Assembly: GCA_001775355.1 (NCBI GenBank)
Contig: MEWM01000097.1
Coordinates: 6,390-13,856 of the forward strand
Length of the DNA: 7,467 nt
Reading direction: 5' to 3'
Origin: a candidate division Zixibacteria bacterium RBG_16_43_9
GTDB lineage: Bacteria > Zixibacteria > MSB-5A5 > RBG-16-43-9
Translations under genes and position numbers: made by a program
In this document: positions 2,543-5,438 of the stretch, piece by piece
Layout of the letters: the number at the start of each line of letters is the position of its first letter
Numbering within the stretch: the first letter of the stretch is position 1
Notes under the pieces: model-generated
Told to the model about the DNA's origin: nothing
Seen by the model: only the letters and a program-made list of their open reading frames with translations
The model's database searches: none

Positions 2543-3976
2543 TTGTACTTCATATCGATTTTTCCTGAAATTTTTCTTTTTCTCTGGACAATTTTAATTT
2601 TCGTAGTCGATTTCTTCTTAAAAGAGGATAAGAGGAAGAATTTAGGTTACCTTTCGCTTTTAGGGATTTTAATTACGATTATCCTTCTTTTCTTCTCAGC
2701 CCAGGGAGAGATGTTCGGGAAAGCTTATTCTTATGATTCTCTAAGTTTATTCTTCAAATTGGTTTTCCTTTTGTCCGCATTTTTGGCAATTTCGGTTTCT
2801 ATTGATTTCGTAGCTAAATTCAGAGCTTTTAAGGGCGAGTTCTTCGGTCTGATTCTTTTCTCCACTGTGGGGATGATGCTCCTTTCATCTGCCAGGGAGC
2901 TAATCTTTTTATACGTTTCCCTGGAGCTGGTCACTATACCACTGTACGTCTTAGCCGCCTATCTAAAACCTGACAAAAAATCTGCAGAGGCTGGACTAAA
3001 ATATATGCTCTTAGGGGCAATCTCCTCAGCCATTCTGCTCTATGGCATCAGCTTAATCTACGGTATTACCGGAACCACTTTTCTTCTGGGAATCAAAACC
3101 AGATTGATGGTTGATTACCTGCAGATAGGTCCCATCGGTCCAGGTCTGTTCCTCTCCTTTATATTTTTTATCGCCGGGTTCGGGTTCAAATTGGCTTTAG
3201 TTCCTTTTCATATGTGGGCGCCGGATGTTTATGAAGGCGCACCTACTCCCATCACCGCTTTTCTTTCAGTTGGGTCCAAAGCCGCAGGTCTGGTGGCTTT
3301 CTTAAGAGTCTTTTTTGAATCATTTTCTGTCTATAATCCGGACTGGGTCACCATTGTCGCGGTCTTAGCGGCTTTGAGTATGATCATCGGGAATATAATC
3401 GCTCTGCCTCAGACCAACATCAAAAGGATGTTAGCTTATTCCTCTATTGCCCAGATGGGGTATATCCTGGTCGGTTTAGTGGCAATATCTGAGAGAGGAG
3501 TCTCCTCAGTTGCCTTTTACACCTTAGCTTACCTTTTTGCCAACTTAGGCGCCTTTGTGGTGGCAATTGCCTTTGAGCTTCAAACCGGCTCCTCTGAGAT
3601 AAAAGATTATTCAGGTCTTTCCCGGACTTCTCCGACTTTATCTTTTTTGATGATGATCTTCCTACTTTCCTTGGTGGGAATTCCTCCTTTAGCTGGATTT
3701 GTAGGGAAATATTTTCTTTTTGCTTCTGCGATTGAAAAAAATCTGATCTGGTTAGTGGTTATAGCGATTCTGACCAGCGTGATCTCACTTTATTATTATG
3801 TTGGGGTAATAAGGGAGATGTATTTCCACAAAAAAGAAGGCGGAGAGAAAATCTTTTTACCATTCGGGATTAAATTAGCTCTAATTATTTGTATAATAGG
3901 TGTCCTTTTAGTTGGTTTGTTCCCCAATCCCTTCTTAGACCTTGCCAGCCAGGCGGCTTTGGTTTTTAAGTATTAA
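2543..3976 (+). CDS. nuoN: NADH-quinone oxidoreductase subunit N (NuoN), TTG start
   Basis: NuoN is the antiporter-like complex I subunit nearest the peripheral arm and the last gene of the usual nuo order. The product is 477 aa (E. coli NuoN is 485 aa) and polytopic. Pump residues line up with E. coli: Glu128 in SLELVTIPLYVL (Glu133), Lys216 in GFKLALVPFHMWAPDVYEG (Lys217), Lys246 in VGSKAAG (Lys247) and Lys389 in FVGKYFLF (Lys395). SSIAQMGYILVG and PPLAGFVGKY are hallmarks. The start is TTG behind GGAGG, with an in-frame TGA directly before it. The gene is followed after 6 nt by a hairpin and T-rich stretch, so it is probably the end of the operon. All residues expected for function are intact. 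Confidence 0.97.
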   Translation: MYFISIFPEIFLFLWTILIFVVDFFLKEDKRKNLGYLSLLGILITIILLFFSAQGEMFGKAYSYDSLSLFFKLVFLLSAFLAISVSIDFVAKFRAFKGEFFGLILFSTVGMMLLSSARELIFLYVSLELVTIPLYVLAAYLKPDKKSAEAGLKYMLLGAISSAILLYGISLIYGITGTTFLLGIKTRLMVDYLQIGPIGPGLFLSFIFFIAGFGFKLALVPFHMWAPDVYEGAPTPITAFLSVGSKAAGLVAFLRVFFESFSVYNPDWVTIVAVLAALSMIIGNIIALPQTNIKRMLAYSSIAQMGYILVGLVAISERGVSSVAFYTLAYLFANLGAFVVAIAFELQTGSSEIKDYSGLSRTSPTLSFLMMIFLLSLVGIPPLAGFVGKYFLFASAIEKNLIWLVVIAILTSVISLYYYVGVIREMYFHKKEGGEKIFLPFGIKLALIICIIGVLLVGLFPNPFLDLASQAALVFKY

Positions 3977-3982
3977 TTGTTG

Positions 3983-4012
3983 CGTCCGGGTTTATCCCGG
4001 ACGTTTGATTTT
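3983..4012 (+). terminator. Possible intrinsic terminator of the nuo operon (hairpin 1)
   Basis: CGTCCGGG (3983-3990) and CCCGGACG (3996-4003) form a perfect 8-bp G+C-rich stem with loop TTTAT, followed by TTTGATTTT. It begins 6 nt after the nuoN stop, the right place for a Rho-independent terminator, though the T tract is interrupted by G and A. Its loop is the reverse complement of the loop of the next hairpin, so it may equally be half of a repeat pair that has been co-opted as a terminator. Confidence 0.55.
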
Positions 4013-4033
4013 CGTCGGGCATAAAGCCCGACG
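4013..4033. repeat. Hairpin 2, partner of hairpin 1
   Basis: CGTCGGGC (4013-4020) and GCCCGACG (4026-4033) form a perfect 8-bp stem with loop ATAAA. The loop is the reverse complement of TTTAT in the hairpin 9 nt upstream, and the stems are similar (CGTCCGGG against CGTCGGGC), so the two look like opposite-orientation copies of one element. It is followed by CTACGAAA (4034-4041), which also follows the next hairpin. Confidence 0.75.
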
Positions 4034-4047
4034 CTACGAAATTTTTG

Positions 4048-4069
4048 GAGACGCATGGCGATGCGTCTC
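4048..4069. repeat. Hairpin 3, GAGACGCAT type, copy 1
   Basis: GAGACGCAT (4048-4056... stem from the G at 4048 region) pairs with ATGCGTCTC (4061-4069) around loop GGCG, a 9-bp perfect stem. It is followed by CTACGAAA, overlapping the stem end at 4069-4076, the same tail seen after hairpin 2. A second copy with the same stem and loop GCG is at 4618-4638. Confidence 0.8.
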
Positions 4070-4090
4070 TACGAAAAACCTCACTTTTAT

Positions 4091-4141
4091 CCTCTTCTTG
4101 AAAAAGAGAGGTGGTGACCTCACGCCGACCCTCTTATGAGG
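4091..4141. repeat. Weak hairpins in a purine/pyrimidine-skewed stretch
   Basis: Three short imperfect inverted repeats lie here. CCTCTTCTT (4091-4099) pairs with AAAGAGAGG (4103-4111) with one mismatch and one G-T pair. GAGGT (4108-4112) pairs with ACCTC (4117-4121), overlapping the first. CCTC (4130-4133) pairs with GAGG (4138-4141) around loop TTAT. They are weaker than the hairpins elsewhere in the island and may be decayed copies. The following stretch to 4182 contains the palindromes CCTGCAGG (4161-4168) and CGATCG (4171-4176). Confidence 0.35.
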
Positions 4142-4182
4142 AGAAGGTTCAGTGCCCTCTCCTGCAGGGGCGATCGTGTGGC

Positions 4183-4210
4183 ATTCCTAAACTTGCTTTG
4201 GGGATTTTTT
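4183..4210. repeat. Hairpin with T tract, partner of 4224-4247
   Basis: ATTCCTAAA (4183-4191) pairs with TTTGGGGAT (4197-4205) in a 9-bp stem with two G-T pairs, around loop CTTGC. It runs into a T stretch ending at 4210, so on the plus strand it has the form of an intrinsic terminator. The loop CTTG is the reverse complement of CAAG in the next hairpin, and both are flanked by AAA and TTT, suggesting two diverged copies in opposite orientation. Confidence 0.45.
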
Positions 4211-4223
4211 GACAGCCTCTCTT

Positions 4224-4247
4224 CACCCTCAAACAAGTTTGAGGGTG
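4224..4247. repeat. Hairpin CACCCTCAAA, loop CAAG
   Basis: CACCCTCAAA (4224-4233) and TTTGAGGGTG (4238-4247) form a perfect 10-bp stem with tetraloop CAAG. The right arm and the bases after it (4238-4257) match 4527-4546 at 16 of 20 positions, which ties this hairpin to a second site downstream. It is a clear palindrome, with no T tract that would make it a terminator. Confidence 0.75.
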
Positions 4248-4273
4248 CCACCCGTCGTCATTGGCAGATTCAG

Positions 4274-4349
4274 ACCAGTTCCATCAAAGATGGACAACCT
4301 GGTTCCATCATTTGTGGAATCAGACACTTGTCCACCAAATATGGACAAG
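4274..4349. repeat. Three consecutive related palindromes
   Basis: Three inverted repeats follow each other at about 24-nt spacing. The first has ACCAG/CTGGT (4274-4278, 4299-4303) outside TCCATC/GATGGA (4280-4285, 4289-4294). The second is TTCCA/TGGAA (4303-4307, 4315-4319). The third is CTTGTCCA/TGGACAAG (4327-4334, 4342-4349), an 8-bp perfect stem. All share the plan TCCA, then AAA or TTT in the loop, then TGGA, and the middle one fits best when read in the opposite strand. They look like diverged copies of one unit. Function unknown. Confidence 0.6.
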
Positions 4350-4490
4350 AAATAGAATATATAGAGATATATATATGTTAGAGATATTTATTTAGAGTAA
4401 CTGTCAAGCAGAATTCAGACAATATTTAGATAAATATTTTGAAATTAAGAAAAAAAATACGTGCTTGTCGGGGAAGATTCATAATGTCAA
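4350..4490. other. A+T-rich stretch with short repeats
   Basis: This stretch separates the middle and right hairpin groups. It holds a TA-alternating run near 4358-4376, the direct repeat TAGAGATAT (4362-4370 and 4379-4387) and the palindrome AATATTT/AAATATT (4421-4427, 4432-4438). GCTTGTCG (4463-4470) is inverted as CGACAAGC (4607-4614) across the next three hairpins. Low duplex stability could suit a promoter or protein site, but I see no clear -35/-10 pair with a gene behind it. Confidence 0.4.
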
Positions 4491-4516
4491 CTTGCCAGGT
4501 CAGGGGACCTGGCAAG
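4491..4516. repeat. Hairpin 11 bp, loop AGGG
   Basis: CTTGCCAGGTC (4491-4501) and GACCTGGCAAG (4506-4516) form a perfect 11-bp stem with tetraloop AGGG, 26 nt in all. Its inner part, GGTC-AGGG-GACC, is nearly identical to the inner part of the hairpin at 4681-4706 (GGTC-AGGA-GACC), while the outer stems differ. No T tract follows. Confidence 0.85.
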
Positions 4517-4548
4517 CACAACAGGGTTTGAGAATGCCACACTTCGCT

Positions 4549-4574
4549 CCTGGCGGATGTTATCATCCGCCAGG
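4549..4574. repeat. Hairpin 11 bp, loop TTAT
   Basis: CCTGGCGGATG (4549-4559) and CATCCGCCAGG (4564-4574) form a perfect 11-bp stem with tetraloop TTAT. The inner 14 nt, GGATG-TTAT-CATCC, are the exact reverse complement of the inner 14 nt of the next hairpin, 11 nt downstream. Confidence 0.85.
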
Positions 4575-4585
4575 GCTTCAGATTG

Positions 4586-4611
4586 TGTCGAGGATGATAA
4601 CATCCTCGACA
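4586..4611. repeat. Hairpin 11 bp, loop ATAA, inverted partner of 4549-4574
   Basis: TGTCGAGGATG (4586-4596) and CATCCTCGACA (4601-4611) form a perfect 11-bp stem with tetraloop ATAA. The inner GGATG-ATAA-CATCC is the upstream hairpin's core in opposite orientation. The outer six base pairs are unrelated to those of the partner, so only the core is shared. Confidence 0.85.
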
Positions 4612-4617
4612 AGCAGG

Positions 4618-4638
4618 GAGACGCATGCGATGCGTCTC
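4618..4638. repeat. Hairpin 4, GAGACGCAT type, copy 2
   Basis: GAGACGCAT (4618-4626) and ATGCGTCTC (4630-4638) form a perfect 9-bp stem around GCG. Outside it GCAG (4613-4616) can pair with CTGC (4638-4641 region) if small bulges are allowed. The stem is identical to that at 4048-4069, but the loop is one base shorter and the flanks (including the CTACGAAA tail) are not shared, so the repeated unit is essentially the hairpin itself. Confidence 0.8.
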
Positions 4639-4651
4639 TGCAACCTTTGCT

Positions 4652-4677
4652 CTTTGTTGGTGTCCTCACCAACAAAG
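4652..4677. repeat. Hairpin 11 bp, loop TCCT
   Basis: CTTTGTTGGTG (4652-4662) and CACCAACAAAG (4667-4677) form a perfect 11-bp stem with tetraloop TCCT. It lies 3 nt before the next hairpin, whose loop AGGA is the reverse complement. A second CCTTTG at 4644-4649 could pair alternatively with CAAAGG at 4673-4678. Confidence 0.85.
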
Positions 4678-4680
4678 GAA

Positions 4681-4706
4681 GATTGTTGGTCAGGAGACCA
4701 GCAATC
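4681..4706. repeat. Hairpin 11 bp, loop AGGA, inverted partner of 4652-4677
   Basis: GATTGTTGGTC (4681-4691) and GACCAGCAATC (4696-4706) form an 11-bp stem with one G-T pair and tetraloop AGGA. Read in opposite orientation, the preceding hairpin has core GGTG-AGGA-CACC; here it is GGTC-AGGA-GACC. The two differ by one swapped base pair (G-C against C-G), a compensatory change that keeps the stem. Confidence 0.85.
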
Positions 4707-4723
4707 AGCAAAAGAGATAATGT

Positions 4724-4743
4724 GGGTTCGATAAATCGAACCC
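4724..4743. repeat. Hairpin 8 bp, loop TAAA
   Basis: GGGTTCGA (4724-4731) and TCGAACCC (4736-4743) form a perfect 8-bp stem with tetraloop TAAA. It is the last hairpin of the island, about 20 nt upstream of the promoter region of the next gene. It contains TTCGA as in a tRNA T-arm, but nothing else of a tRNA is present around it. Confidence 0.75.
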
Positions 4744-4762
4744 CTCAGATGTGAAAAGTAAT

Positions 4763-4808
4763 TTTTTTAAAGATTTTATTGACATTATAATGAAAAAGAA
4801 TAACTTAT
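4763..4808 (+). promoter_or_regulatory. Candidate sigma-70-like promoter(s) for the DUF502-exchanger block
   Basis: A perfect TATAAT lies at 4786-4791, with only a weak T-run (4763-4768) at -35 distance (17 nt). A perfect TTGACA lies at 4779-4784, with weak -10 candidates TAACTT (4801-4806, 16-nt spacing) or ACTTAT (4803-4808, 18 nt). The two perfect hexamers are adjacent and cannot belong to the same promoter, so either one promoter with one good box or two overlapping promoters are present. Transcription would begin 30-50 nt upstream of the DUF502 start. The sigma factor preferences of this organism are unknown. Confidence 0.45.
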
Positions 4809-4844
4809 GTGAAATCGTATGATGGGTAGCCTCTTTCAAATGAT

Positions 4845-5438
4845 ATGGTAAAAGCTTTAAGGAGATACTTTCTTTCCGGCGTATTGATTATCGTTCCCCT
4901 GATTATCACCTATCTGGTGTTGCGTTTCCTCTTTTTGAGTGTGGATGGGCTTCTCTCCCCTTTGTTGAATAAACTTTTAGGATATGGTATTCCGGGGATA
5001 GGGCTTTTAGCCACTTTGATCCTTATATTCTTAGCTGGAATTTTTGCCTCAAGCTTGATTTTCTCCCGGCTGGTGTCTTATGGGCAGTCGCTATTTTTGA
5101 GAATTCCCATAATTCGTACTATCTATGGACCTGCCAAACAGTTAGTAGAAAGTTTAACGGTTGAAGATAAAAGGGCTTTCAAACAAGTTGTTCTTATACA
5201 ATTTCCCCGTAGGGGGGTTTTCACCCTGGGTTTTGTCACTAAAAAGGTTAGTTTTAACAATGAAGAGCTTTTTGCAGTCTTTGTTCCCTCTACTCCGGCA
5301 CCTTTCTCTGGATGGACTCTTCTTTTTAAGAGAGAAGAGGTTATCCCCTTAGAGATATCAGTTGAACAGGGGATTGAATTTTTTGTCTCAGGTGGAATTG
5401 CCTCCCCGGATAAGTTCGACAAAGCAAGTAGAGTCTGA
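4845..5438 (+). CDS. DUF502 family membrane protein
   Basis: This 197-aa protein belongs to the DUF502 family (Pfam PF04367), widespread in bacteria and related to plant COV/LCV proteins; its biochemical role is not established. It opens with a basic MVKALRRYFLSG, then TM1 at about 12-32 (VLIIVPLIITYLVLRF) and TM2 at about 47-75 (GIPGIGLLATLILIFLAG). Family signatures follow: RIPIIRTIYGPAKQLVE (about 85-102), FPRRGVFTLGFVTKK (about 119-133) and FVPSTPAPFSGW (about 146-157), with a soluble C-terminal domain. Length is normal for the family. The ATG is the only one after an in-frame TAG at 4827, and the N-terminus looks complete, but no Shine-Dalgarno is visible upstream. A 10-codon frame (4819-4851) overlaps the start and might couple translation; this is speculative. 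The exchanger gene follows after 2 nt. Confidence 0.93.
   Translation: MVKALRRYFLSGVLIIVPLIITYLVLRFLFLSVDGLLSPLLNKLLGYGIPGIGLLATLILIFLAGIFASSLIFSRLVSYGQSLFLRIPIIRTIYGPAKQLVESLTVEDKRAFKQVVLIQFPRRGVFTLGFVTKKVSFNNEELFAVFVPSTPAPFSGWTLLFKREEVIPLEISVEQGIEFFVSGGIASPDKFDKASRV

Follow-up and report, generated by a model that had tools for sequence, protein, structure and literature searches.

The hairpins clustered in one intergenic gap of the window (the whole 7,467-nt stretch of DNA analysed here) most likely form a mosaic of REPINs, in which each pair of hairpins was probably inserted as a unit by a transposase belonging to its own family. We read the pairs as REPINs because each hairpin family brackets a gene for a REP-associated tyrosine transposase (RAYT), and because related genomes differ in the pairs that they carry. 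Two kinds of foot tag, GT[AG]G and TGCT/GCTC, occur side by side in this single island, and the TGCT-tagged families go with a RAYT clade that lacks a motif linked to GTAG.

A hairpin island downstream of nuoN

The window carries, in this order, the end of a nuoL-like gene, nuoM- and nuoN-like genes (PF00361), a gap of 868 nt, a DUF502 gene, a sodium/calcium exchanger-like gene and a TerC/Alx gene; the nuo names are presumed from gene order. The nuoN-DUF502 gap, which is the hairpin island, is part of contig C97; the assembly has 1.95 Mb and is 74% complete. The closest named NuoN protein belongs to a Candidatus Zixiibacteriota MAG (85% identity, the window's own record possibly having been excluded from the comparison).

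With a stem of at least 8, at most one mismatch and a loop of 3-6 as the definition of a hairpin, we counted 11 hairpins in the island (864 nt); 200 dinucleotide shuffles held 0.095 on average and never more than 2. The folding z-score of the island DNA was -19.7 (20 shuffles). The four hairpin pairs named in an earlier note on this DNA were recovered by the hairpin scan of the window, with a reservation for the CTTG/CAAG pair: its CAAG hairpin (4224-4247) is sound, but the CTTG arm (4182-4206) is degraded here and fell below the threshold of the scan. The orthologue of that arm in another genome of the genus (L112 in G002) reads CATCCCCAAA[CTTGC]TTTGGGGATG and has a perfect stem. We named the pair families after their loops, A (TTTAT), B (CTTG), C (TTAT) and D (TCCT), and a further family E (TTAC). 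The features of the island are as follows (a dot stands for no assigned strand).

3979..4003, + strand: family A REP copy 1; degenerate tag GTTG at 3979-3982, hairpin 3983-4003 from the hairpin scan, loop TTTAT
4013..4037, - strand: family A REP copy 2, inverted; hairpin 4013-4033, loop ATAAA, tag CTAC at 4034-4037
4048..4069, strand dot: single hairpin of another dispersed family; core GAGACGCAT, with GTAG/CTAC feet on both sides in many copies
4178..4206, + strand: family B REP copy 1; tag GTGG at 4178-4181, degraded hairpin 4182-4206, loop CTTG(C)
4224..4253, - strand: family B REP copy 2, inverted; hairpin 4224-4247, loop CAAG, tag CCACCC at 4248-4253
4491..4516, strand dot: single hairpin of another dispersed family, CCAGGTC[AGGG]GACCTGG, from blastn and the hairpin scan
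4546..4574, + strand: family C REP copy 1; tag GCTC at 4546-4549 with its last base inside the stem, hairpin 4549-4574, loop TTAT
4586..4615, - strand: family C REP copy 2, inverted; hairpin 4586-4611, loop ATAA, tag AGCA at 4612-4615
4618..4638, strand dot: second single hairpin of the GAGACGCAT family, from the hairpin scan
4648..4677, + strand: family D REP copy 1; tag TGCT at 4648-4651, hairpin 4652-4677, loop TCCT
4681..4710, - strand: family D REP copy 2, inverted; hairpin 4681-4706, loop AGGA, one stem mismatch, tag AGCA at 4707-4710
4724..4743, strand dot: single hairpin GGGTTCGATAAATCGAACCC, from the hairpin scan

The partners of a pair are separated by 9 (A), 17 (B), 11 (C) and 3 nt (D). 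The GAGACGCAT family amounts to some 14 copies, since its 28 contexts were counted over both strands, and hairpins resembling CCAGGTC[AGGG]GACCTGG flank the RAYT gene L246 on both sides in G003, a genome of another genus in the same family. A segment of the island mostly devoid of strong hairpins (4329-4445) has a dispersed copy at C66:22577-22687 (82%), the best non-self blastn match of the island, and is almost unaltered in the two same-genus genomes G001 and G002.

Dispersed, inverted and tagged hairpin pairs

The earlier note had proposed a search of the hairpins against this genome, and all four families indeed turned out to be multi-copy and dispersed in it. The blastn search with the island gave 92 matches, the island itself counted, some of which span a whole pair. 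The two family A copies jointly match C134, C97:351 and C3; whole-pair matches were found for the C pair in C62, C76, C146, C159 and C149, and for the D pair in C140, C124, C57, C129, C6, C60 and others. The B pair has one full match (C22, 77%), and its CAAG arm alone was matched many times. The family C pattern GGATGNNNNCATCC occurs 46 times in the genome (control, 3), and the TTGGT core of family D, with one mismatch allowed, 104 times (control, 31). In an unbiased sample of 465 kb, composed of 40 contigs or contig starts picked irrespective of hits, there were 267 perfect hairpins with stems of at least 8, as opposed to 25-47 in five shuffles.

The earlier note had asked whether partners always lie in opposite orientation, which is nearly so. 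All 13 adjacent pairs of family C are inverted, each with the TTAT-type copy preceding the ATAA copy (complete list of 46 matches, 42 of them orientable). Among the 50 exact copies of family D in the matches listed, 11 of 11 adjacent pairs are inverted and none is direct; nine run from a TCCT-type to an AGGA-type copy, and the two in reversed order fall between neighbouring pairs of an array at a RAYT gene. Patterns of seven families applied to the 465-kb sample found 9 of 10 adjacent same-family pairs inverted, the exception being a direct pair of family A. That pair is the only adjacent one among 19 copies of family A in the sample, where family B has five copies and no adjacent pair; both families occur there mostly as solitary hairpins, and the inverted orientation of their pairs is drawn from the whole-pair matches and from synteny. 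The excess of adjacent hairpins with complementary loops was less marked when loops alone were compared: 7 of 84 adjacent pairs in the 465-kb sample were exact, against a shuffled mean of 1.4 and a shuffled maximum of 7 in 2000. As this loop-only test, which disregards families, was weak, the family-sorted tests of orientation were added.

Orientation can also be told from the feet of the stems, and it was thus incorrect that only the loop reveals it. Every family has a tag on one side of the stem foot, which faces outward within the pair. The tag of family A is GT[AG]G (27 of 29 copies examined), and that of family B is GGGTG (11 of 11 copies examined; GT[AG]G in 9 of 11). Family D has G, C and T at -8 to -6 in 31, 31 and 32 of 33 copies examined, family C has G, C, T and C at -9 to -6 in 23, 23, 23 and 22 of 27, and family E has GTG in 10 of 10. 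One island thereby holds GTAG (TTTAT family), GGTGG (CTTG family) and TGCT/GCTC (TTAT and TCCT families). Families A and B carry the GT[AG]G at the 5' foot that characterises the GTAG REP super-family. Families C and D lack it and stand outside the GTAG REPs because their fixed tag is (T)GCTC; they also fall outside the CGTC REP super-family, having a TGCT tag and bracketing a RAYT gene.

The stems of family D suggest what is conserved in these elements. Over 33 copies the inner stem is constant while the outer stem varies with matching changes, 94.5% of the cells being paired; 56 cells are altered on both sides (20 in shuffles), and the covariation score is 0.396 (0.135 in shuffles). The paired compensatory changes thus indicate that the hairpin itself is conserved. 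The number of base pairs altered on both sides, six, was not unusual relative to the shuffles (mean 4.9; 71 of 500 reach six).

Pairs have also been gained or lost at this site. In the alignment with the two same-genus genomes, the A pair, complete here, is 14 nt short in G001, and G002 does not have it; the D pair is shared with G002, and G001 has in its place a second B pair with a similar spacer; the B and C pairs are present in all three genomes. The nuoN-DUF502 gap of G003 harbours different hairpins. For one C pair, 10 relatives were searched with L150 for an empty site; the flanks were rearranged, and no clean empty site was among them. Separately, positions ~5065-5438 of the window, covering the 3' part of the gap and the start of the DUF502 gene, are near-identical to G002, the rest of the gene being more divergent, as if sequence had been exchanged through recombination.

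These observations bear out the suggestion of the earlier note that each pair is a short head-to-head element comparable to BIMEs built from REP sequences: the families are multi-copy, the pairs recur as units and the partners are inverted. Among the other explanations, the one that keeps most of its standing, though improbable, is that the hairpins are retained mainly for a host role, as terminators or stabilisers of mRNA 3' ends, whatever their origin. The hairpin at 3982-4004 lies just past the nuoN stop codon, has a T-rich tail and scores as terminator-like. Nevertheless, 3900-4900 holds only three terminator-like sites (1.0 +/- 1.0 in shuffles), of which one coincides with a named hairpin, and the host role leaves the outward tags, the bracketed RAYT genes and the turnover of pairs unaccounted for. 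As a secondary use it is compatible with the REPIN reading, and this first family A hairpin may serve the nuo operon.

Less probable still is the idea, raised in the earlier note, that the pairs are RNA elements selected for loop complementarity, whose partner loops pair in a kissing interaction. In the window each loop is the exact reverse complement of its partner's, and the nuoN transcript could extend through the island, but the complementarity is not strict across copies, and for family D it hardly differs from chance: three of nine pairs among the copies listed are exactly complementary, against 2.2 with shuffled partners, and the combinations TCCA/AGGA, TCCT/GGGA and TTCT/ATAA occur. 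In family C, 12 of 13 partner loops are exact complements and 12.0 are expected after shuffling, a test of little information because C loops hardly vary. The Rfam search of the window returned no family at the gathering score, and kissing loops leave the tags and the link to RAYTs unexplained. Under the REPIN reading, partner loops are reverse-complementary because the second REP repeats the first in reverse orientation, and no loop pairing is required. That the hairpins are chance palindromes or an assembly artefact, to which one imperfect arm each in the B and D pairs might point, is hardly credible given their excess over shuffles, the multi-copy families with fixed tags and the recurrence of the island in two further assemblies from this genus.

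RAYT genes bracketed by their own hairpin families

The Y1_Tnp profile (PF01797) has ten matches in the genome, nine of them above the cut-off; L040 scores below that of Pfam. HUH and Y...NP motifs are present in 8 of the 10 genes; L036 is without the Y motif and L037 has NYVH. Six proteins score above the NCBIfam REP_Tyr_transpos cut-off (L031, L032, L033, L034, L038 and the B-type protein), whereas L039 (71.8), L241 (79.1) and L037 score below it (80), the C- and D-type RAYTs falling short narrowly; L241 is the D-type gene of G002, with an open frame there.

RAYT genes bracketed by their own family were found for A, C and D in this genome and for B in G002 (flank distances are measured from the open frame). 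L032 (C85) has GTAG-CGTCGGGC[TTTAC] at its start and a tail-to-tail family A pair downstream; the script gave no matched flanks for this gene, and its bracketing by family A was read by eye. L039 (C36) is bracketed by family C, its upstream hairpin [TTAT] lying at 8 nt and its downstream hairpin [ATAA] at 11 nt. Family D hairpins stand on both sides of L040 (C6), the nearest at 7 nt upstream ([TCCT]) and 28 nt downstream ([AGGA]). A B-type RAYT was not found in the 74% complete assembly of this genome. That of G002 (L338) is flanked upstream by GCACCCCCAAA...TTTGGGGGTGC and downstream by CACCCTCAAA...TTTGAGGGTG, a stem equal to that at 4224-4247 of the window, with loops (TTAA, TAAAG) that differ from those of family B in the window. 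L035 (C85:3927-4388), flanked by [TTAC] and [GTAA], is the RAYT of family E; it has an internal stop, and its relatives L273 (G002) and L270 (G006) are open with the same flanks. In G129, the hairpins bracketing the RAYT gene L267 are GGCAGAC[TTTA] and [TAAA]; a GTGCGC tag faces outward on each side, possibly another tag variant.

In a survey across the class, Y1_Tnp matches were present in 56 of 59 genomes searched, own genome included. From 129 loci we removed 58 with no ORF carrying the motif pattern and three repeat proteins, which left 68 distinct genes; two doubtful RAYTs (L088 and L317) were counted in this survey and omitted from the tree. Hairpins with shared arms on both sides accompany 48 of the 68 genes and 3 of 109 control ORFs. 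Where the protein contains the motif [WF]-x5-[ED][HRQ]-x2-R, GT[AG]G was scored at both hairpins in 21 of 24 flanked genes, as against 4 of 24 where the motif is absent (Fisher P 1.4e-6). The proportions were 18/20 and 4/23 with a narrower ORF pattern, and 19/24 and 3/25 with shorter shared arms. The four motif-less GT[AG]G scorers are L098 (a near-motif), L280 (GGTGG), L311 (DH..R without W) and L039, which was scored as GTAG-flanked because the script took an outer hairpin pair of another family, the inner pair being family C. Testing for a generic GC[TG]C tag gave no separation between RAYT groups (1/20 and 3/23, P 0.61); only GT[AG]G separated them.

The motif region covers residues reported as contacting GTAG in the E. 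coli TnpAREP (PMC6006769, PMC8266576). L031 aligns to the structure of that protein (PDB 4er8, E 3.1e-13) via W-Q...E-H..R, and thereby in part of the region reported to contact GTAG (Corneloup et al. 2021, PMC8266576); in contrast, L039 has no W-Q...E-H..R motif, and the sequence search gave no match between it and 4er8. In a tree of 66 RAYT genes, 21 motif-less genes form one clade (support 99/86) that includes the TGCT-type RAYTs. Only 1 of its 15 flanked members scores GT[AG]G (L039, through the wrong choice of hairpin) versus 24 of 32 elsewhere. Other motif-less genes are placed outside this clade, among them a seven-gene B-type group, and L098 sits on a very long branch. A tree-aware test of motif against tag had two independent pairs on well-supported branches, and no power. 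The association of motif and tag is accordingly one of lineage rather than of independent replicates, as independent contrasts are too few; from it we infer, with lineage as a confounder, that lost contacts may have gone along with a changed guide.

Probable REPIN systems with different foot tags

The pairs can be pictured as a REP hairpin followed by an inverted second copy of it, the foot tags of both pointing outward. A RAYT would bind the folded, single-stranded hairpin, use the foot tag as a guide, and cut and rejoin at both ends, so that REP-spacer-REP would be copied as a miniature of the RAYT-carrying unit. The four families are likely to be co-located because the gap tolerates insertions. 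The earlier note had suggested a common insertion or copying mechanism; copying through RAYTs agrees with it, but not a single shared machinery, and the mechanism appears to be shared in kind only, because each family has its own type of transposase.

Much of this arrangement is already in print. Inverted REP doublets, several REP families per genome, family-specific RAYTs and clusters of unrelated REPINs have all been described. The REPINs of Pseudomonas fluorescens SBW25 (PMC3116915) are likewise inverted REP doublets of several families, each adjoining its own RAYT. Clusters of two unrelated REPINs, comparable to the island, also occur there (Bertels and Rainey 2011, PMC3116915), contrary to the earlier supposition that sites of mixed families were undescribed. 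Unlike those REPINs, the present ones come from another phylum and have perfect stems with loops of 3-6 nt, and two of the four families are TGCT-tagged. A one-sided foot tag and head-to-head dimers with tags outside, as well as several families per genome and repeat-specific RAYT genes, are similarly described by Di Nocera et al. 2013 (PMC3733652) for REPs and REPtrons tagged with GTAG or CGTC. TGCT is absent from that text, where CGTC repeats are without a transposase, whereas the TGCT families here bracket RAYTs.

In the papers considered here, REPs linked to RAYTs usually carry GTAG, and exceptions are few. One class with another foot, TnpA-Y1 class 3 with CnGA, is given by Quentin et al. 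2018 (PMC6006769). Subclass 2.6 of TnpA-Y1, as described there, has a YIH[QN]NP motif and no GT[AG]G foot, both of which fit here, and likewise has flanking structures repeated in the genome; it is mostly from Bacteroidetes with weaker, atypical structures, whereas long, perfect stems and an invariant TGCT foot are seen here, and the two are likened by description. Among the papers listed in a search of the text of open-licence literature, none mentions Zixibacteria, and no paper in that literature has REPIN, transposase and TGCT together; the phage collection gave no match at E 1e-5. The island, in which REPINs with a TGCT tag and a RAYT clade of their own occur among GT[AG]G-tagged ones, is a variant of the known REPIN kind, and the tag divergence inside a single island is the new point.

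Two recognition codes would then stand side by side, GT[AG]G for the TTTAT and CTTG families and TGCT/GCTC for the TTAT and TCCT families, the latter likely being the code of a RAYT clade in which the residues that usually read GTAG have been lost. We regard it as an evenly balanced proposition that a Zixiibacteriota RAYT clade abandoned GTAG and reads a TGCT foot, and that several mutually independent RAYT/REPIN systems with different codes operate within one genome and share sites. If this is the case, swapping the guide-reading segment between RAYT clades would swap the tag. With its ten RAYT-like matches and its four or more REP families, which use three kinds of foot tag, such a genome supplies naturally occurring enzyme-substrate pairs for studying guide reading by RAYTs and the effects of a changed guide on cutting and target choice.
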